From positions 1 to 17,619 of the forward strand of contig QKYT01001280.1 in NCBI GenBank assembly GCA_003550305.1: a DNA stretch of 17,619 nucleotides, read 5' to 3'. The position numbers were made by a program, and so were the translations under genes. The stretch is from Glomus cerebriforme. Lineage: Eukaryota > Glomeromycota > Glomeromycetes > Glomerales > Glomeraceae. Below the pieces are notes generated by a model that was given only the letters and a program-made list of their open reading frames with translations, made no database searches and was not told where the DNA came from. The first letter of the stretch is position 1; each line of letters starts with the position of its first letter. Shown here in pieces: positions 2,166 through 17,618 of the stretch.

Positions 2166-3150
2166 AAAAAATTAGTAGGTTCAAAATAAAAATACTAAAG
2201 GTTTCTTAGTGATAAACAATTTTAAAGAAAAAAAAACTTAAAAAAAAAAGTATTTCACATAGGGTATATATAGTTTTTTGAATTTCAACTTGGTCATATG
2301 AGTCATATGAGTCAAAATTGTCTGAAATATCATAACAATTATAACTGTTCTTTGATATTTTCTATTTTTTAATTATTTCATACAATAAAGTTTATATTAT
2401 TTTTTAAAATAAATTATTGAATTATGGTAAATAAGAGTATTTTATTTAGGAAAATCAACTATGTGATAGATAATATCAATATATCAATTACTTTATCATG
2501 ATTAATATGACGTACCAATATTATTTGATCGATCAACAAAGTATTTTAATAACCGCCAGATGCAAACCTTTAACAAAGTCAACATTACCAATAATTTTTA
2601 TGAAAATTGCGGAAGTTAACTGACATAAAAAATTTTTTTTATCATAAAAAAGTACATTTTATTTATCATGATAATTCGACCAATCTCATTTGATGAATGT
2701 ATAGAAGAACAGATAACAAATTTAGAAAAGAAAATATATTTGTAAACGAAAAAGTATGGAAAAGGAATATATTATTAATTGATTCGATAGTATATAGTAA
2801 TTAATTACCAAAAAGTAAAATAGGGAAAAGGCTAGGAAAATAATATGGTAAATAGATGTAAGGATACAAATAGAATAAAAAAAACTATATAAAACAATAG
2901 AATACAAAAACAAAAGATTAGAACAATAAATTTTTTTTTTCGAATAATGACATAGTGCCGCAGTGTCGCAATGACAAAAATGGAAAGAATTGGATTTTGG
3001 AACAATAGGATATAATAAATCCATTGTTGCACCATTTGATCACCAGATCACACAAACAAAAATGCATGCTTTTTAAATAACGACGCCAATTAATTTTTTT
3101 ATTCAAAAAAAGAAATTTTTTTTCTTTTTTATTTTTTTTTTTTTGTAAAC
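2166..3150. other. Intergenic region and upstream leader of the kinase gene
   Basis: Nearly pure A+T sequence with several T-runs; the last 45 bases before the ATG at 3151 are almost all T, typical of a fungal leader. Minus-strand frames at 2722-3106 are made of Phe, Leu, Ile and Tyr codons from A+T sequence and look like chance. No defined promoter element can be named. Confidence 0.5.
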
Positions 3151-4868
3151 ATGAAATTCAAGTTCAAGAAACTTTTAAATAATACATCATCACCTCAAAA
3201 GAATAGAATAAAAGAGGGACCTTTAGGGTTATGTGNAGAATGTACTCGTCTTATGAATGTAAGTGGCGGAGAAATATGTCAATCATGTCAATTGAAATAT
3301 ATGAAAAATAGTTCTACAAATTGGACCGAGGAAAAAACTGAGTATTTCACTCAAAAAAGACAANCAAAACCTAAAGGACGATGTATAAAATGTTTTTATN
3401 ATGAAAGGGATAAAAAATTATGTAAATCATGTCAATTAAATTATTTAAAAGAAAATTTTAAAAATTGGACTAGTGGAAATGAAAAAATTGATGATTTCAT
3501 TCAAAAAGTTCAAATTGATGAAGCAGGTAGTTATTTAATATTTGAATGGATACCATATGATCAGTTTAGTAACATTAAAGAAATAGGAAAAGGTGGTTAC
3601 GCTACAGTATATTCAGCAATATGGAAGGATGGTCCATTACGTTATCTTTACGAAAAAAGAGAATGGAAAAGATCATATGATGAAATAATTGCTTTAAAGC
3701 GTTTACATAACTCACGAAATATAACCAATGAATTTTTAAATGAGGTATGGNAATTTTCATAAATTAAATATTTTTTATTTTATTTTTAATAATAATAATA
3801 ATGTAATACATTTATTATATTTAATAGGTTAAAGCATATTCAAATATGCATGCTGGTAATATTATTATAAGACATGGAATTTCTCAAAATCCAGATACAA
3901 AAGATTATGTTATGGTCCTTCAATATGCAAATGGAGGGAATTTAGATAAATACGTGAANGAAAATTATAAATCTTTTAGTTGGAAAACTATAATANNAAC
4001 ATTAATTGATATAAACGATGCCCTTAAAATAGTTCATCAGAAACATATGTTTCATCGGGATCTTCATACGGGAAACATATTATTTAATGATATAACGGCA
4101 TATATTACAGATATGGGATTATCTGGAGAAGTTGATAATCCAAATAAATCAAATGTTTATGGAATTATGCCTTATATAGCTCCTGAAGTNTTAGAAGGAA
4201 AGCCTTATACTCAAGCAGCAGATATATATAGTTTTGGTATGATTATGTATTTTGTAGCGACTAGAAGACAACCTTTCAGCAATCGTGCTCATGATTTATC
4301 TTTATCAATTGATATCATATGTAATGAAATTAGACCTGAAATAAATAAGACGGAAGCACCAACTTGTTATATNGATTTGATGAAAAAGTGTTGGGATTCA
4401 AATCCAATTAATAGGCCAAATACTCTGGAAATATCTGAATCATTGGAATTGTTTCGTAAATCAACTAGATTTATAAATGGGGAAGAACAAGAAGATAATG
4501 AGTTCAAAAAGATATTCGAAATGGTGGAAGAATATAGAAGTGCAATAACTTTAGGAGATTATGAAATTCAAAAGCAACTTGAAGATGATGAAGAATATAG
4601 AGCTGCAATATGTATATTTGAAGGAATTGAACAAGATTTNGATTACGAAACTAAAAAAGAATTTGATAAAGNGGAAGAACACAGAAAAGCAAATCTTTCA
4701 TCTAATGAAAATAACAAATCAACTATTCATCCACAAGCAACTTATGTATCTCGACAACTTAATAAATTTAGTGTTAAATTTAGTGACAAATTTAGTGACA
4801 AATTTAGTGACAGTGTCGCAATGGAGAATTTGATATTATCAAACGAATTAAATGATTTGAACGATTAA
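3151..4868 (+). CDS. TKL-type protein kinase with two N-terminal Cys modules
   Basis: Two exons, 3151-3744 and 3828-4868, give 544 aa. The likely role is protein phosphorylation; the substrate is unknown. Residues 28-46 and 78-94 are two CxxC...CxxC modules, probably zinc-binding. The kinase domain covers about 140-410: glycine loop GKGGYATVY (146-154), ATP-anchoring Lys in ALKRL (K183), alphaC Glu (E198, last codon of exon 1), HRDLHTGN loop (D276, N281), DMG instead of DFG (D293-G295), APE (316-318), DIYSFG (from D331) and a terminal Arg (R394). All key residues are present, so it is probably active. The tail has acidic helical segments, a KFSD repeat and the motif HPQATYVSRQLN, which recurs in the kinase gene on the minus strand. 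Scattered N bases obscure about nine codons but break no frame. The start is the first ATG of the frame; an upstream exon cannot be excluded. Confidence 0.9.
3745..3827 (+). other. Intron of the kinase gene (83 nt, phase 0)
   Basis: The donor is GTATGG after a GAG codon and the acceptor is TTTAATAG before GTTAAAGCATATTC. Removing it joins FLNE to VKAYSNMHAGN in frame and restores the normal alphaC-to-beta4 order. The position and both splice-site sequences match the introns of the minus-strand gene at 10873-15249, so it is conserved between the two genes. It contains one ambiguous base (3751). Confidence 0.9.
4764..4811 (+). repeat. Four 12-bp in-frame tandem repeats
   Basis: The unit AAATTTAGTGAC occurs four times end to end; the first copy ends in TT instead of AC. 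It encodes KFSV then three KFSD units in the kinase C-terminal tail. Because the unit is 12 bp, copy-number change keeps the frame and would give length variants. Confidence 0.9.
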
Positions 4869-5353
4869 ACTAATCAGTGGCACAGTAAAATAGTTTTAAG
4901 ATTATTATCTAACACTTTATATATTTTTTTCTGTTTTTATTTTATTAATAAAAATATATACTTTATTATTAAAAAACCAAAAAGCTAGGTCTTTTGTTCG
5001 CTTGAAACTACAAACTACAAATACAAACATGTTGATCATGTTATTGAGTCACGTTACTGGATAATGTTATTTTGTTTTTGACGTATTAGAATTTAATTCT
5101 TTTATTTTTAAATCATCANAATAAAGTTGGATCAGAAATGGCTCGAATATAATCTCAAATTTTTATATAACAGTTCAAATAAATTGATTTTGTGGACTTG
5201 TTTATATACTGAATCTTCCTTGTATAACACCTAATGTTTTAGTTTGAAATGTTGGAAAGGAATATACTTTGCATCTAATATTTATAGTTTTTTTCACCAG
5301 AACCATCAGTCATTGAAATATAACAGAAAATTTAAGTTCATTTGACATTAATT
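4869..5353. other. 3' flank of the kinase gene, no other gene
   Basis: An AATAAA at 4947-4952, about 80 bases after the stop, is a plausible polyadenylation signal. The rest is A+T-rich with one ambiguous base (5119). Nothing else is supported. Confidence 0.4.
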
Positions 5354-5647
5354 TTATGGCTTGATTTGTGACACATAATTATATTGTGCATAGCATATAG
5401 CTAAACTATTCATTGCATCTTCATTACCATTATCTGCTGCTTTTTGATACCAATAAAAAGTTAATTCTAAATTCTTTTCTATTCCTTTACCATCTTCATA
5501 ACATTTGGATAAATTATACATTGCATCTTTATGGCCATTTGCTGCTGCTTTTTGATAATTCATTGCGACTTCATTATTACTTTCTTCTTGTCATTCTAAC
5601 AAATCAATATTATCACTTGAATAATTATTATTAGCAGGAGTTGACAT
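5354..5647 (-). pseudogene. Sel1-repeat protein remnant with internal stop
   Basis: From ATG 5647 the frame runs 18 codons (MSTPANNNYSSD...), meets TGA at 5593-5591, then continues in the same frame to the stop at 5354. The region after the TGA holds one Sel1-like repeat (AMYNLSKCYEDGKGIEKN...FYWYQKAADNGNED) and the start of a second (AMNSLAICY). Sel1 repeats are helical protein-binding units, often attached to kinases in this type of genome; no kinase domain is attached here. Upstream of the ATG the frame stays open for nine codons and then has TAA. I infer a decayed 3' end of a longer Sel1 gene. A short protein starting at the Met at 5563 (69 aa) is possible but has little more than one repeat. 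Confidence 0.7.
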
Positions 5648-5983: not shown

Positions 5984-7201
5984 CATTTACCCACGCTGTT
6001 TAAAATACTCTTGTATGAAACAAAGAGATATTTGGCCAAAATTAGCCCAATTTTACCAGAATTATAAATTTTTTTTAACTATACAATGTACCCTAATCAC
6101 ATAAAATTATTTTTGCATAACTAGGTCTTTTTTAATTATTTATTAATGGAATAACAGATATAATAGATTTAAGAACTGACCGCAATTTAGTTTTTTTACA
6201 GGATTTATTTTAAACTTTTTTTATTTGGTTTAGATAAATTGAGGAAAAAAAAAATCAAATTGTGATGTCTTATTTCAAAATGAAACAAACAAAATTTCTT
6301 TAAGCGAAGTAATAAATTTTTGGTTAAAGAACTAATAAATTTTGACCAAAAAGTTGGTAGATATATAATCAGAACTTGATACGACGAACCTTCGGTACTA
6401 AAAAAAAAAATCTGTTTAGCGTGAAATTTGTTATATCAATATTGCAATTAATTCCGATAAAATAATAATTATTTTAGTTTAATCATTATTTCATTAAGTT
6501 TATTTTACATACTATGTTCTTTAGTTTTTCATTTCTAAACCCTTTATTAATCCACATATGACATATCCACGTACTGAAAGTTTCTGGTATGTTTTCCAAA
6601 TTCCGCTACGGGTGGGTAAAGTACTTGTGTTATTATGTATGATAATTATATAAAAAACCAAAATATAAAAATAAATTTTATATGATATTAATTAGCAAAC
6701 AATTTAATCAAAATATTTTAATAATGAAAAAGTAAGCAGATGACGATTTAATAAACAATCGATTGTATTCGATTAAAGAATAATGTTAGTTTTTTTAATA
6801 ATTTGAAGAAAGTAATCTACTGAATAATATACTAGATTTTCTCTTATCAGGCCGAATAGTCAAATAAAACAACAAAAATTTTAAAAATGATGGCTTATAT
6901 ATATATTATCAGTACAATTAGTGGACCCATTCAAGAAAAATTGCGCCAGCATTTGTAGAATTAGTCATTTTACACACGTACAATATATATAATTTTTCTT
7001 GTAAATCAGATATAAAGAAATTGATATTGAAGAACGAGATTTATAAATTATTTAAATATCACAAAAAAATTAATATTTTTTTTATTTAACGTCAAATGAT
7101 TGTGTATAATTAAAAATATTAACATTCAATATACTCAATCTACACATATAAAAGATTTGAAACAATTAGGATCTGACGTTCAATTTATTCGATTATCTTA
7201 G
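5984..7201. other. Intergenic, no gene seen
   Basis: A+T-rich spacer. I saw no convincing open frame, RNA gene or ordered repeat beyond short A or T runs. Confidence 0.5.
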
Positions 7202-7700: not shown

Positions 7701-9104
7701 TCATTTACTATTTGCAATACATGAATCACTTTTGAGTACACCATCATCTATAAATTTATAGAATACATTCGAAAGTGCTTCTTTGGAACATTCGACATTT
7801 AAATCAAGTTTAAAATAAAGGGAACTTCGTCTTTCTTTCCAATTATTTAAAAATTCTTTTAGCCTTTCTATCGAAAATTTCCAATCACCATTAATTTCAA
7901 TGTGTTGTAATGAAATAGATTTTAATAAAATCTTTAATAATGTATCCCCATTTAAATAAAATCCGTTTATAAAGATTTTCTTTAATTGTTTACAATTTCT
8001 TAACAATTCCCCTAATGAATTATTGACTTCAACGACATAAGGGAAACAAAAATATTCAAGCAAAGGACAATGTTGATGGATTATACTTATAATCGGTATA
8101 ATATCATCTGCCGTGACCCGTGGCTTGTAAATTTCGATTTTTTTGAGATGTCCACTCGTATTTTGAATCAATTCTTTTACGTTGGTAAGATAGCAAACCT
8201 TAAGATATTGGAGTTTTGGAAGTGTAACTAAATGTAAATCATTCATATCGTTCGTAGAATATCCTAACATTAAAGTTTCTAAATTTATAAAAGAATTTAA
8301 TCTAGTTGAAGGGATACATAATCGAATTGGTGCATCAAAATGTTTAAGTGAACTAGCATGTTTAATTAATGCTGAATCCATCCCTTTACAAAAGCTATTC
8401 CAGTCATACAATCTACTTTTCCTCCCTTTATAACAAAAATATTCTAATTGATTTTGTGCCTCAATTAATCTAAATAAACCATGATTATTTTTATTTTTCC
8501 TTCTAATTTCAAGTCTTTTTATATTTACACATATTTCCGCCAATATATAAAAAATTTTTTCATCCACACATTGTGCGCACGTAAATTCAACAAGATTTGA
8601 GAGATGATCCTTTGACTGTATAAAATTCACCACATCATATTTCCTTTCATAAAATTCATTTGAAAGGTCCAAATATTTTATTCTAGAACATTGACTAAAA
8701 ATTATATTATTAAATTCTTTATCTATAATTTCTTTTTGTATTTCTGTAAAATTTGAATTAAAACAAACTTTAATAACTTGGGACATATCAAAAATAATTA
8801 TGGATTTAATAAAACTTATATAATTAAATAATGGTTTTTGTGTTGAAACAAAAGATAAATTAACTTTATTTTCATGAAATAAACGTAAACTTGGGGAGTT
8901 TTCGGGTAAATAATAAAAAAAGATTTTAAGAAGGGAATAAAATTTGTAATTTATGTGAACATAATTTAAAAAATCCTTCCATAAAATTGGAACGGTCGTT
9001 TTACACCAAAATTTATTTACTAAAAGACAGTTAAATAATGAATTATAGTCATTATCCAAATCTTCAATAATCAAAACGAGAATATCAAAAATTAGTTTAG
9101 ACAT
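7701..9104 (-). CDS. F-box protein with leucine-rich-repeat-like body
   Basis: A single exon encodes 467 aa. Residues about 2-48 match an F-box: SKLIFDILVLIIEDL, then CLLVNKFWC and VPILWKD, the Leu-Pro/Val-Trp pattern that binds Skp1. Residues about 100-440 show spaced Leu/Ile/Cys blocks such as LKKIEIY, LQHIEING and LEYFCF, fitting degenerate leucine-rich repeats for substrate recognition. By family knowledge it would be the substrate-selecting subunit of an SCF ubiquitin ligase; the target is unknown. The ATG has a good A-rich context (AATAACA) and follows a pyrimidine-rich leader. Reverse-strand AATAAA signals lie at 7667-7672 and 7616-7621, 29 and 80 bases after the stop. The frame is intact with no sign of decay. 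Confidence 0.9.
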   Translation of the reverse strand: MSKLIFDILVLIIEDLDNDYNSLFNCLLVNKFWCKTTVPILWKDFLNYVHINYKFYSLLKIFFYYLPENSPSLRLFHENKVNLSFVSTQKPLFNYISFIKSIIIFDMSQVIKVCFNSNFTEIQKEIIDKEFNNIIFSQCSRIKYLDLSNEFYERKYDVVNFIQSKDHLSNLVEFTCAQCVDEKIFYILAEICVNIKRLEIRRKNKNNHGLFRLIEAQNQLEYFCYKGRKSRLYDWNSFCKGMDSALIKHASSLKHFDAPIRLCIPSTRLNSFINLETLMLGYSTNDMNDLHLVTLPKLQYLKVCYLTNVKELIQNTSGHLKKIEIYKPRVTADDIIPIISIIHQHCPLLEYFCFPYVVEVNNSLGELLRNCKQLKKIFINGFYLNGDTLLKILLKSISLQHIEINGDWKFSIERLKEFLNNWKERRSSLYFKLDLNVECSKEALSNVFYKFIDDGVLKSDSCIANSK

Positions 9105-10872: not shown

Positions 10873-12084
10873 CTAATCAGCAATTTCACATTCTAAACAA
10901 TCAGAATTAAACTCATATTCTGAAAGATCTTTTGTAAAGGAATTTAGTAACCGAGATGTATAAATAGCTTGTGGATGAGTGGTTGAACTTTTTTCCTCTA
11001 AAAAGGAAAGTTTTGATTCTTTGTATTCATCTGCTTTTTTGAATTGCTTTTCAATATCACTATATTGAATTTCTTTTTCATCATCACTATGTTTCTCTAC
11101 CTTTTCATCATCGCTATGTTGCTCTTGTCTTTCATCATCATCATCACTATGTTGCTCTTCTCTTTCATCATCATCATCACTATGTTGCTCTTCTCTTTCA
11201 TCATCATCATTATGTTGCTCTTCTCTTTCATCATCATCATTACTATGTTGCTTTTCATTTTCATCATCATCATCACTATGTTGCTTTTCATTTTCATCAT
11301 CATCATCACTATGTTGCTCTTCATTTTCATCATCATCATCACTATGTTGCTCTACATTTTCATCATCACTATGTTGCTCATCATTTTCATCATCATCATC
11401 ATCATGTTGCTTTCCTTTTTCATTATTATAAGAATCATAAAATAAATCAAACATTTTCATTATTTCAGTAGCTTTAGGTCTATTATCTGGATTTGCATCC
11501 CAACATCTTTTCATTAAGTCAATATAACATTTTGGTGCTTCCAATTCATTTATTTCAGGTCTAATTCCACTACAGATGTCTAATGTTAAAAATTGATCAT
11601 GTGCACGATTAGCAAAAGGTTGTCTTCCAGTTGCTATAAAATACATAATCATACCAAAGCTATATATATCTGCTGCTTGAGTATAAGGATTTCCTCTTAA
11701 TACTTCAGGGGCTACAAACGGCATAACACCATAAACGTTTGTTTCATCTATATTATTAACTTCACCACATAATCCCATATCTGAAATACGCAATGAAAAA
11801 CCATCATCTAAAGATGTAGTGGTTGACAATATATTCCCTGTATGAAAATCATGATGAACCATTTTACTATGATGAATTTCTTCGAGGCCACTAATAATGT
11901 GTGATAGTGCATTTATATTATAAGTCCAATTAAAATTATTGTAATGTTTATATATCCAGTAATATAAACTTCCACCTTCCGCATAATCAAGAATCATAAT
12001 ATAATTTTTTGTATCTGGATCTTGAGATATTCCATATATTGGAAGAATGTTACCACTATGTTGTTTAATAGAATATGCTTTAAC
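10873..12084 (-). CDS. Exon 7: kinase C-lobe, acidic repeat and conserved tail
   Basis: 403 aa (913-1315). It begins VKAYSIKQHSGNILPIYGIS, then the hinge DYAEGG. The catalytic loop is VHHDFHTGN: Arg of HRD is His, while Asp (D991) and Asn (N996) remain. The metal-binding motif is DMG (D1014-G1016), APE is at 1038-1040, followed by DIYSFG and the Cys-Trp...NRP end of the domain. A long Asp/Glu/His repeat follows (about 1139-1252). The C-terminus has HPQAIYTSRLLN, as in the kinase at 3151-4868. RD-type activation control is altered; catalysis remains possible. Confidence 0.9.
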   Translation of the reverse strand, partial: VKAYSIKQHSGNILPIYGISQDPDTKNYIMILDYAEGGSLYYWIYKHYNNFNWTYNINALSHIISGLEEIHHSKMVHHDFHTGNILSTTTSLDDGFSLRISDMGLCGEVNNIDETNVYGVMPFVAPEVLRGNPYTQAADIYSFGMIMYFIATGRQPFANRAHDQFLTLDICSGIRPEINELEAPKCYIDLMKRCWDANPDNRPKATEIMKMFDLFYDSYNNEKGKQHDDDDDENDEQHSDDENVEQHSDDDDENEEQHSDDDDENEKQHSDDDDENEKQHSNDDDEREEQHNDDDEREEQHSDDDDEREEQHSDDDDERQEQHSDDEKVEKHSDDEKEIQYSDIEKQFKKADEYKESKLSFLEEKSSTTHPQAIYTSRLLNSFTKDLSEYEFNSDCLECEIAD

Positions 12085-15000
12085 CTATTAAATTGTAAAA
12101 ATTATTATTAGTATATTGAAAAATTTTAAATTAAATAAAGAAATTTCATACCTCATTTAAGAATTCAACAGAAATATTTTCTGAGTTGTGTAAACATTTT
12201 AAAGCAACTTTTTTATTCTGATCTCTTATACATTCGTTGAGTCCATTATTTTTTAATGGACCATTCTTCCATATTGCTAAATATATTGTAGAAAATCCAC
12301 CTTCACCTATTTTTTTAATATTACTAAACTGATTATATGGTATCCATTCAAATATTATATCATCTGGTTCATTAATTTTTAGTTGCATTGCTTGAATTAA
12401 ATTATCAATATTTATATTTCCACTGGTCCAATTTGTAAAATCTTCTTCTAAATAATTTATTTGACATTGTTTACACCATCTATCATCTATATTTGTGTAT
12501 TTTTCATCACATTTTTCACAATATTCATTTTCAAGAACTATGATATAATCTTTTGTATCAGAAATTTGAGATATTCCATACACTTTAAGTTCATTATCAC
12601 AAGTATCACTAATTGAATATTTCTTAACCTATTAAAAATATTTAAAAGACATCTTATTAAAAATTAAAATAGTATTATGTAAATTTAAATTTACTAATAA
12701 TTACCTCATCAGTAATATTTTGTGAATATTTTAAAGTACATTTCAAATCTAATCTTTTCGTCTGTTTCTTATTATAAAGATAATCATAATATAATAAATC
12801 ATTCTTCCATATTGCTGAATATATCTTTGTAAAATCATTTTCTTTTATTTTTTTAATATCATTAAATTGATTGTATGGTATCCATTCAAATATTAGATCA
12901 CCTGGGTGATTAATTTTTAATTGCATTTCTTGAATTAAATTATTGATTTTATCATTTTCAGTCCAGTTTGTAAAATTTAATTTTAAATCATTTACTTTGC
13001 ATTTTTTACACCATTCATCATCATATCCATTCCAATAATCCATATATTTTTTACCACACCTTTTACAATATAAAATATGCTGAAAAACAATGATATAATC
13101 TTTTGTATCTGGATTTTGAGATATTCCGTATAATGGATTATAATAAGCATGTCTTATTAGATGCATTTTAACCTAAAATAAAATTATATTAACATAAAAA
13201 TATTTTTTTGAAGTTATAAAATTTTTAAGAAATTTCGTACCTCAGTTAAAAATTCATCCGCATTTTGTGAGTCATATAATTTTAAAGAAACATTTTTATT
13301 TGATTCTCTTGACCATACCTTATTATAATAAAGTAATGGTCCATCCTTCCATATTGCTGAATATACTGTAGCAAAACTACTTTTACCTATTTCGTTAATA
13401 TTAATGAACTGATTATATGGTATAAACTCAAATAAAAATTCCAAAAAACCAATTTTTGATTGCTGTTTTTGAATAAAATTATCAATTTTTTCATTTTCAC
13501 TGGTCCAATTTATAAATAATTTTTTCAACAAAATTGTGTGACATGGTCTACACCAATTATTATATGTATCTGTATATTTTTCACCACATTTTTCGCATTT
13601 TTCACTATATTCATCTTGAAGAACTATAATATAATCTTTTGTATATAAATTTTGTGAAATTCCAAAAATTTTATTGTGATACTTGTTTAAATCTGCTTTA
13701 ACCTATTAAAGTATAAAAATATTTATTAAAAAAAAAGATATTTTTTAATTAAATTAAGTAAAGAAATCTCATACCTCATCTAAAGATTCATTAATGGAAT
13801 TGATTGTTTTTAAAATAACTTTTGCATTCTGCTGGTTTCTTGCATATATATTTTTTCTTTTATTATAATTTAATGGACCATCCTTCCATATTGCTACATA
13901 TACCTTATCAAAACTTTCTTCACCTTCTTTAATATCACTAAACTGATTATATGGTATCCATTCGAATACCATATCATCCAATTTATTAATTCCTAATTGC
14001 ATTTCTTGAATAAAATTATCAATTTTTTCATTCCCACTAGTCCAGTTTTTAAAATTATTTATAAAATTATTTATTTGACATTGTTTACACCATTCATACT
14101 TTGCATAATTTTTATCTATATATTGTTCATCACACCTTTTACAATATTCATTTGGAAAAACCATAATATAATCTTTTGAATCTGGATTTTGTGATATTCC
14201 ATAAATTTTAAGATCATTAAGACCTTTATAATCGGACTTAACCTATTGAAATAAAATAAATTAATAAAAGAAAAAATAATTTAAATTGAATGTTATCTAA
14301 AGAATTCATACCTTGTTCAGAAATTTAATGATATTTTGTGAATTATATAAATATTTTAGAGTAACTTCTTTGTTTGATTTTCTCATCCATTCCCTATCAT
14401 GATAACATAACGGGCCATCCTTCCATGTTGCAGAATATAATATATGCAAATCATCTTTAATTATTTCTCTGATATCATTTAACTGATCATATGGTATCCA
14501 TTCAAATACTATATCCGAGTCATAATCAATCTTTAATTGCATTTCTTGAATTAAATTATCAATTATTTCATTTCCACTAGCATGATTTTTTCTAAAACAA
14601 TTTATTTGACATGGTTGACACCATTCTTCAATTATATTTGTATACTTTTTACCACATTTTTCACAAAATACATCTTGGAAAACGATAGCATAATCTTTTG
14701 TATTTGGACATTGAGATATTCCATATATTTTAAGAACTTCATCAATATATGTTATTGAATATTTTTTATCCTATTAAAGTATAAAAATATACATTATTAT
14801 AAAAGGTATTTAAATTTAGATTAAAATTCATGAAATTTTATTATTACCTGATCGATAAAAAATTCATTAATAATATTTTGTAAGTTAGTATATAGTTTTA
14901 AAACAATCTTTTTATTCCGATTTCTTGTATATTCATTTTTATTTTTATTATAATTTAATAGACCATCCTTCCATATTGCTGAATATACTTTATCAAAACT

Positions 15001-15249
15001 TTCTCCGCCTATCTCTTCAATATCACTAAACTGATTATATGGTATCCATTCAAATATCATATCATCCGGTTCATTAATTTCTAATTGCATCTCTTGTATC
15101 AAATTATCAATTCTTTCATTTTCACTGGACCAATTTGTAAATTTCTTTTTTAAATCATTTATTTGGCATAATTTACACCATTCATACTTTACACTTGTAT
15201 ATTTCTCGCCACATTTTTCACATTTCTCATAACTTTCTTGAAGTGACAT
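10873..15249 (-). CDS. Seven-exon kinase gene with six tandem Cys-module/N-lobe cassettes
   Basis: Exons on the minus strand: 15249-14848, 14770-14312, 14242-13775, 13702-13241, 13172-12705, 12628-12152 and 12084-10873. They join through six phase-0 introns of 67-77 nt into 1,315 codons. Exons 1-6 each encode a CxxC...WCxxC module, a linker like FTNWTSGNEKIDN, then the kinase N-lobe from FEWIPYNQF to alphaC. Exons 2-6 begin with kinase beta4-beta5 (YGISQxPDTKDYIIV), so each N-lobe is followed by the next Cys module rather than a C-lobe. Exon 7 carries the only C-lobe. Exons 6+7 together form a complete kinase. The ATG at 15249 is directly preceded by an in-frame TAA. Whether all exons are joined or used alternatively cannot be decided from sequence. 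Kinase activity is probable for the exon 6-7 pair; substrate unknown. Confidence 0.8.
11065..11406 (-). repeat. In-frame minisatellite coding His-Ser-(Asp)n-Glu units
   Basis: About eleven head-to-tail units of 27-33 bp encode 9-11 residue blocks such as HSDDDDENEEQ and HSDDDDEREEQ, with shorter HSDDENVEQ and HSDDEKVEK forms. All unit lengths are multiples of three, so copy changes keep the frame. The segment is highly acidic and probably disordered. Long forward and antisense frames over it are shadows of the repeat. Confidence 0.9.
12152..12628 (-). CDS. Exon 6: beta4-beta5 + Cys module + intact N-lobe
   Basis: 159 aa (754-912), starting VKKYSISDTC. The Cys module is C790, C793, C805 and C808. 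This is the only copy with an intact loop, GEGGFSTIY (861-869), the ATP Lys in VALK (K897) and the alphaC Glu at the end of FLNE (E912). It lies next to the C-lobe exon, so selection appears to have kept just the N-lobe that completes the kinase. The donor is GTATGA. Confidence 0.85.
12705..13172 (-). CDS. Exon 5: beta4-beta5 + Cys module + degenerate N-lobe
   Basis: 156 aa (598-753), starting VKMHLIRHAY. The beta4-beta5 part is near consensus (YGISQNPDTKDYIIVFQ). CKRC and WCKKC form the module. The glycine loop is lost (IKENDFTKIY) and the beta3 Lys region is rearranged (LDLKCTLKYS), so ATP binding is unlikely. It ends ITDE; the donor is GTAATT. Confidence 0.85.
13241..13702 (-). CDS. Exon 4: beta4-beta5 + Cys module + N-lobe lacking glycines
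   Basis: 154 aa (444-597), starting VKADLNKYHN. VLQDEYSEKCEKCGEKY closely repeats the gene's first residues (SLQESYEKCEKCGEKY); WCRPC completes the module. The loop GKSSFATVY keeps only the first glycine. SLK keeps the Lys and FLTE keeps the Glu. The segment VWSRESNKNVSLK resembles exon 2 (EWMRKSNKEVTLK). The donor is GTACGA. Confidence 0.85.
13775..14242 (-). CDS. Exon 3: beta4-beta5 + Cys module + degenerate N-lobe
   Basis: 156 aa (288-443), starting VKSDYKGLND. CKRC and WCKQC form the Cys module and the full NWTSGNEKIDN linker is present. The glycine loop is EGEESFDKVY, one residue shorter before it than in the other copies. VILK keeps the Lys, and the exon ends SLDE with the Glu. ESFDKVY and the LNYNK segment are shared with exon 1. 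Confidence 0.85.
14312..14770 (-). CDS. Exon 2: beta4-beta5 + Cys module + degenerate N-lobe
   Basis: 153 aa (135-287), open throughout, starting DKKYSITYID after a TTTAATAG acceptor. YGISQCPNTKDYAIVFQ is followed by CEKC and WCQPC (C170, C173, C185, C188). The linker is shortened and lacks the Asn-Trp-Thr part. The glycine loop is lost (IIKDDLHILY), while TLK keeps the Lys. The exon ends FLNK, so Glu is replaced by Lys. The donor is GTATGA. Confidence 0.85.
14848..15249 (-). CDS. Exon 1: Cys module + N-lobe with weakened glycine loop
   Basis: 134 aa (residues 1-134). It starts MSLQESYEKCEKCGEKY; C10, C13, C25 and C28 form the Cys module. The glycine loop is GGESFDKVY (81-89), lacking the second and third family glycines in register, but VLK keeps its Lys (K118). 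It ends INEFFIDQ, so the alphaC Glu at the exon end is replaced by Gln. The donor is GTAATA. Confidence 0.85.
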
Positions 15250-17402: not shown

Positions 17403-17618
17403 TTAAATAGGTAGTCTGTTGTTTGATATTTGTTCTAANNTAATGTATTCTTTTTTAACCCTTTCATCTACTAAAAATGCATTTGATGTAAGGGATAGAA
17501 TTTTTACATCATCCCAAGTCCTACACCTGCTTAGAGCAACATAAGATTGGCCTCGTGCAAACATTTGATTATTTAAGTAAAGTGATGTTTGTGGTAATGT
17601 TATTGCTTGTGTTTTGTG
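17403..17618 (-). CDS. Pif1-like DNA helicase, C-terminal end (partial)
   Basis: 71 residues of a gene whose 5' part lies beyond the right edge. HKTQAITLP corresponds to helicase motif V, and GQSYVALSRCR is the hallmark motif VI of superfamily 1B Pif1/Helitron helicases (arginine-finger region). The tail runs through WDDVKILSL, AFLVDERVKKEY and a final LEQISNNRLPI. Two ambiguous bases (17439-17440) obscure one codon. Pif1-like helicases occur both as host genome-maintenance proteins and as Helitron transposases. The partial sequence cannot separate these, but the hairpin just downstream favours a transposon origin. Confidence 0.88.
   Translation of the reverse strand, partial: HKTQAITLPQTSLYLNNQMFARGQSYVALSRCRTWDDVKILSLTSNAFLVDERVKKEYIXLEQISNNRLPI

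Follow-up and report, generated by a model that had tools for sequence, protein, structure and literature searches.

A tandem array of phase-0 exons predicted to encode a chain of kinase N-lobes ending in a single kinase domain in Glomus cerebriforme

Kinase expansion has been described in the arbuscular mycorrhizal genus Rhizophagus. The available portions of the published accounts report 2,533 kinases in R. irregularis (PMC10234402), name PF07714 as the most frequent motif of expanded genes (PMC6123716), give kinases as ~28% of the putative genes discussed (PMC3886924) and note the expansion again in PMC4219462, while the word "kinase" is absent from the main text of the R. clarus genome paper (PMC6007072). 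The gene examined here lies on the minus strand (15249-10873) of a 17,619-bp stretch of Glomus (Rhizophagus) cerebriforme DNA (contig QKYT01001280.1, hereafter the window), and is predicted to carry a tandem array of exons for six amino-terminal kinase lobes (N-lobes) and one carboxy-terminal lobe (C-lobe). It shares with the expanded PF07714 kinases the genus, the kinase type, a Cys module before the N-lobe and, as in a single-unit gene of the same window, an intron after helix C; however, chains of N-lobes are not mentioned in those accounts, as far as their available portions go. A preliminary description of the window had recognised no named family with this architecture. Literature searches likewise found no description of tandem N-lobe arrays ending in one kinase in the text available, but the architecture is not unique to this gene, being that of a whole gene subfamily in Rhizophagus.

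The nearest functional analogy is offered by plant tandem kinase-pseudokinase proteins (TKPs) such as WTK1/Yr15, in which, according to the accessible part of the source, an intact kinase is fused to kinase-derived parts without catalytic residues, and for which a decoy role has been proposed (PMC6170490). In both systems one chain joins an intact kinase with disabled kinase parts. However, the TKPs, as described there, contain two whole kinase domains in tandem, whereas the window array has one C-lobe and is not a TKP; in the array family the dead parts consist solely of N-lobes, as many as 15 of which precede the last unit, with Cys modules between them. Janus kinases and MLKL/RIPK-type pseudokinases differ in consisting of whole two-lobed domains. 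The Dscam, titin and fibronectin genes contain symmetric exon arrays, and repeated exons of equal phase permit in-frame expansion. The array shares such exons with these genes, but its repeat border cuts through the fold, leaving each module common to two exons.

We consider it probable that the locus is one seven-exon gene encoding a single chain whose last N-lobe alone works with the C-lobe, the inner ones being disarmed binding or regulatory modules. The transcript would be spliced at six phase-0 introns to give a protein of 1315 residues, likely consisting of five disabled N-lobe modules followed by one complete tyrosine kinase-like (TKL) kinase as the only catalytic part. Re-reading the minus strand from 15249 to 12152 bore out the six consecutive open exons previously described, with their lengths, phase-0 borders, acceptors and donors (Table 1; all introns GTA..AG), and a terminal exon (12084-10873) brings the coding exons to seven. 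The six N-lobes do end in one C-lobe; each N-lobe, however, is split over an exon border, one exon closing with beta1 to alphaC and the following exon opening with beta4-beta5. This split was absent from the preliminary description, as were the subfamily-wide architecture and the fact that nearly all N-lobes other than the last have lost the ATP-loop glycine.

At the local base composition 10.6% of random codons are stops, which puts the probability of an open exon of array size at 2e-8 to 3e-7; in each of the six array exons, every one of the five remaining frames has 5 to 34 stops, and introns 1-6 all contain stops in at least two frames. Exon lengths divisible by three (64/64 exons) are a consequence of how the borders were chosen and are not evidence. 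Splice scores separated true junctions from decoys inside exons only modestly (medians 15.5 and 11.7, n = 86 each), so the argument rests on phase and shared junction position rather than on signal strength. Pairwise identity between introns, compared with shuffles, carried no information, as gaps inflate the values.

A row of separate, unspliced pseudogene fragments of tandem kinases appears highly improbable. Decayed arrays do exist in this genome, and one of them, L029, shows the pseudogene form of the family with broken frames and a stop in its C-lobe; however, the window has six open exons with six matching splice pairs in one frame, and independent pseudogenes, as had been rightly argued, would not keep such agreement among acceptors, donors and frames. 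Like chains also occur in 19/22 other genes, and the orthologues are annotated as single proteins. We give next to no credence to an assembly artefact stacking copies from different loci: the contig is short and the family large, but the window units differ by 35-52% in protein, a divergence well beyond what mis-joined reads would produce, and proteins of other species mostly show the same unit order.

The genome contains at least 73 C-lobes of the subfamily (matches of at least 226 bits; 150 of 2147 candidates scored), with the next drop to 211 bits and ~48% identity, and one shorter match (199 bits, 62% identity) may be a further member. The unit exon has at least 151 genome matches (150 of 1774 candidates scored), five listed ones with stops. 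Twenty regions plus one, picked as having the most similar C-lobes except for C527, held 22 genes besides the window's two. Two or more units (2-8) were present in 19 of these 22, one unit in two, and none was recognised in the remaining gene. Their junctions were predominantly phase 0 (83/88, with 3 in phase 1 and 2 without an assigned phase); including the window, phase-0 introns measured 62-103 nt and 85/90 donors started with GTA. Many array introns (L021-L041 and the window) begin with GTATGA (47/90) or GTATAA (12), which on read-through give Val-stop at once, so a retained intron would cut the chain cleanly at a module border.

An existing gene model agrees with this reading at four junctions of array L028 of the same genome. 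The GenBank protein P0208 from G. (Rhizophagus) cerebriforme matches it in five long stretches (four at 100%, one at 98%), and its blocks abut exactly at four of the introns placed here (5149-5216, 6200-6261, 6712-6779 and 7817-7890). Its second junction is unclear since the neighbouring units are nearly identical, and it has a join where the present reading of L028 left one unassigned. Together with the phase-0 junctions of the other genes and the six-unit orthologues described below, P0208 favours the single gene with a tandem exon array that had been proposed. Recent copying within arrays is seen in units 2-3 of L028 (95% identical in DNA) and units 2 and 6 of L025 (92%). A candidate spliced retrocopy at C527, with an open frame of 3256 residues, was dropped; the nearby L041 is an ordinary array with introns and no open reading frame (ORF) of 400 residues. 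L041, the only array covered by this check, ends ~870 bases past the start of the C527 C-lobe frame.

The species-named relatives among the matches listed all belong to Rhizophagus or G. cerebriforme. Among the annotated Rhizophagus relatives analysed (the best 120 of 479 full-length proteins), each has 3-16 units. The array had been proposed to be sought in related species, and six-unit proteins were indeed found in R. irregularis, R. clarus and R. diaphanus (P0131, P0133, P0134, P0136, P0140 and P0145). Their units pair with those of the window along the diagonal in 5 or 6 of 6 positions, the off-diagonal cases pairing window unit 3 with unit 1, its near twin, and unit identity across species is 56-78%; the seven-unit P0153 showed no unit-by-unit match to the window. 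Window units 2, 4 and 5 fall into starred clades with their counterparts in a tree built from 110 units over 134 columns, although the tree as a whole is poorly supported (9/107 inner branches starred).

Alignment of the 998 units of the 120 proteins to one profile revealed a sharp dependence of the G-loop on position. The glycine at column 108 is present in 105/120 last units and in 7/120 next-to-last units (Fisher p = 1e-41, the proteins being related), and further up the chain in 10/120, 8/119 and 9/117. The columns that best separate last from other units, among 146 ranked, are 108, 111, 110 and 109, all within the G-loop. In R. cerebriforme, window included, the glycine occurs in 20/20 last, 12/72 other and 3/3 single units, and it has been lost in the window's five inner units. 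The lysine of the VAIK motif is much less affected (117/120 last vs 743/878 non-last units). Column 108 is encoded by a different non-glycine codon in each of four inner units of L026, which show ~88-91% identity in the pairs listed. Last units do not form one clade in the 110-unit tree, which was built without the G-loop columns (18 changes vs a shuffled mean of 22.7), which suggests repeated glycine loss; this tree is weak, with one independent pair on starred branches, and the count of at least 23 glycine-state changes on the best tree is not firm.

The positional pattern bears on the possibility of mutually exclusive splicing, in which one of six alphaC half-exons would be joined to the C-lobe exon to give a Dscam-type menu of kinases. 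Six like phase-0 borders, as in 83/88 junctions elsewhere, would let any exon join any later one in frame. We nevertheless regard such a menu as improbable. An inner half joined to the C-lobe would mostly yield a kinase without an ATP loop, each inner exon supplies the beta4-beta5 strands that complete the preceding N-lobe, and unit order is mostly kept in the orthologues; the first two of these points favour the single chain.

The ratio of nonsynonymous to synonymous substitution (dN/dS), pooled by a simple method over partly overlapping unit pairs of at least 80% nucleotide identity, was 0.59 for non-terminal units (63 pairs), 0.30 for terminal units (6 pairs) and 0.50 for C-lobes (46 pairs), the nine closest C-lobe pairs giving 0.20-0.42. 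This check had been proposed for the array exons; the values lie below 1 and appear to be those of coding, selected sequence, weakly so for the inner units, and diversifying selection was not found in the pooled data. The main rival to a binding or control role for the inner modules is that the chain is spliced and translated but its inner part is expanding ballast, a by-product of unequal crossing-over with little function other than to leave the terminal kinase unharmed. Unit number varies among paralogues and relatives, units within one array are up to 92-95% identical, and the inner dN/dS is high enough to fit this view. We still hold it unlikely, in that the six-unit orthologues keep their number and mostly their order despite the divergence of their units, frames remain open with pooled dN/dS below 1, and the loss is centred on the ATP loop, with other N-lobe features, such as the lysine, being kept.

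The inner modules of the window and of P0134 are N-lobes alone, without a C-lobe, and do not qualify as pseudokinases in the sense of a full kinase fold that no longer has its catalytic residues. A survey of pseudokinases (Kwon et al. 2019) reportedly may touch on Rhizophagus. In a structural model of P0004 (predicted local distance difference test, pLDDT, 82), beta1-3 span 77-121, helix C 130-138 and beta4-5 152-170, so an inner module is predicted to be a five-stranded N-lobe with helix C, assembled from the last part of one exon and the first part of its successor; the structural matches listed for this model were all kinases or pseudokinases (50/50). The Cys module (CxxC..CxxC) occurs in 16/20 first, 42/52 inner, 15/20 last and 1/3 single units of this genome, and its Pfam zinc-ribbon matches are weak (NOB1, E 0.051). 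Units 3-7 of L026 and 3-4 of L023 have no Cys module by profile, and there beta4-beta5 leads almost directly into the linker and the next N-lobe.

Kinase catalytic motifs comprise GxGxxG, the VAIK lysine, the alphaC glutamate, HRD, DFG and APE. The terminal part of the window product retains IGEGGF, VALK, the glutamate, the aspartates of HHD and DMG, and APE, with histidine in place of the HRD arginine; HRD is the consensus of 18 aligned relatives. Exon 7 matches Pkinase PF00069 (E 7.2e-32), the orthologue P0134 matches the PF07714 profile over 4-256 of its 258 positions, and the solved structures nearest in sequence to P0134 are TAK1, Roco4, MLK1 and RIPK1. As judged from sequence, the terminal domain of the window product is a complete two-lobed TKL-type kinase domain.

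Several observations weigh against the single chain with one live kinase. Three ORFs on jgi or ena contigs (P0315, P0341 and P0014) run through a unit junction with no intervening intron; single introns may possibly have been lost there. Some of these ORFs start or end as if at unspliced introns, and all three are ambiguous and prove neither transcripts nor splicing. P0208 carries extra joins inside units 3 and 6 that are absent from the present reading, and for the window gene no identical annotated protein of at least 723 residues appeared among the matches listed. The column-108 glycine is missing in 15/120 last units, and the next-to-last unit of L023 keeps an intact loop. HHD in place of HRD means that activity of the window kinase should not be assumed, and its own predicted activity appears not to be assured. 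The inner dN/dS of 0.59 indicates weak constraint, the C-lobe pool of 0.50 is not clearly different, and the pairs are not independent. For the smaller model, Foldseek TM scores were low (0.24-0.31 among the matches listed) with only part aligned, and the full-length model is weak (pLDDT 71; predicted template modelling score, pTM, 0.45). Finally, we infer both constitutive splicing, from sequence and gene models, and the binding or decoy role of the inner modules.

The hybrid exon may have had a single origin, in which two tandem two-exon kinase genes were fused through deletion of the first C-lobe. In 34/41 units in which both were found (72 examined), 4 or 8 residues separate beta5 from the first CxxC, a spacing that fits one original fusion point. 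The intron may predate the array, because it is also present in the single-unit kinase encoded on the window's plus strand. The hybrid exon would then have multiplied within the gene; with phase 0 at either end, it keeps the reading frame at any copy number. Those copies that lie away from the C-lobe would tend to lose ATP binding, with the terminal unit held to the kinase pattern. The inner modules, together with their Cys pairs, could then act in tandem in binding or as decoys, gating or targeting the one terminal kinase, the rack of disarmed N-lobes binding partners or the kinase itself and so controlling it. We suggest, tentatively, that the arrays form a new class of repeat protein, in which a kinase N-lobe, its sheet cut by an intron, was made into an endlessly extendable tandem recognition module, giving symbiotic fungi a fast-evolving sensor rack with one kinase as its read-out.

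The mycorrhizal kinase expansion has been told, in the available portions of the literature, as counts of genes or domains, whereas the arrays show that part of this expansion consists not of further enzymes but of kinase-derived modules placed before one enzyme, with a sharp positional switch between dead and intact loops. Kinase counts based on ORFs or domains can miss or split such genes, since window exons 1, 3 and 6, scanned singly, gave no Pfam match at E 0.001. The arrays also offer a natural series of 1 to 16 units in which the regulation of a live kinase by disabled kinase parts can be tested, and are a clear example of how a gene can lengthen its protein in frame via a hybrid symmetric exon.

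Table 1. Features of the window, with positions counted from its first letter
Feature	Position	Strand	Length	Content
Exon 1	14848..15249	minus	402 nt	Start codon, Cys module (CxxC..WCxxC), helical linker, beta1-alphaC of N-lobe 1; G-loop IGGESF, second Gly lost; exon end ..FIDQ
Intron 1	14771..14847	minus	77 nt	GTAATA..ATAG, phase 0
Exon 2	14312..14770	minus	459 nt	beta4-beta5 of N-lobe 1, Cys module, linker, beta1-alphaC of N-lobe 2; G-loop IIKDDL
Intron 2	14243..14311	minus	69 nt	GTATGA..ATAG, phase 0
Exon 3	13775..14242	minus	468 nt	beta4-beta5 of N-lobe 2, Cys module, linker, beta1-alphaC of N-lobe 3; G-loop -GEESF
Intron 3	13703..13774	minus	72 nt	GTATGA..ATAG, phase 0
Exon 4	13241..13702	minus	462 nt	beta4-beta5 of N-lobe 3, Cys module, linker, beta1-alphaC of N-lobe 4; G-loop IGKSSF
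Intron 4	13173..13240	minus	68 nt	GTACGA..TTAG, phase 0
Exon 5	12705..13172	minus	468 nt	beta4-beta5 of N-lobe 4, Cys module, linker, beta1-alphaC of N-lobe 5; G-loop IKENDF
Intron 5	12629..12704	minus	76 nt	GTAATT..ATAG, phase 0
Exon 6	12152..12628	minus	477 nt	beta4-beta5 of N-lobe 5, Cys module, linker, beta1-alphaC of terminal N-lobe 6; G-loop IGEGGF intact, VALK and alphaC Glu present
Intron 6	12085..12151	minus	67 nt	GTATGA..ATAG, phase 0
Exon 7 (terminal)	10873..12084	minus	1212 nt incl. stop	beta4-beta5 of N-lobe 6, sole C-lobe (HHD, DMG, APE), acidic tail
In-frame minisatellite	11105..11423	minus		33-nt period, ~10 copies; encodes acidic EQHSDDDDE tail
Second kinase of the same family	3094-4868	plus		Downstream exon 3828-4868
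F-box-like protein (weak)	7704-9104	minus	467 residues	
Sel1-repeat fragment	5357-5590	minus		
ORF end	17403-17618	minus		

The acidic tail repeat adds to the length of the window product, which has 1315 residues compared with 1172-1203 in the six-unit orthologues. The second window kinase has a single N-lobe; its first exon encodes two Cys modules, and its phase-0 intron (83 nt) corresponds to that of the array. Some of its bases are N. Between the two kinases lie a protein with a weak F-box-like start (PF12937, E 0.021) and a Sel1-repeat fragment (PF08238, E 8e-13). The ORF end near the edge of the window had no Pfam match below E 0.1 and presumably resembles the tail of a PIF1-type helicase.
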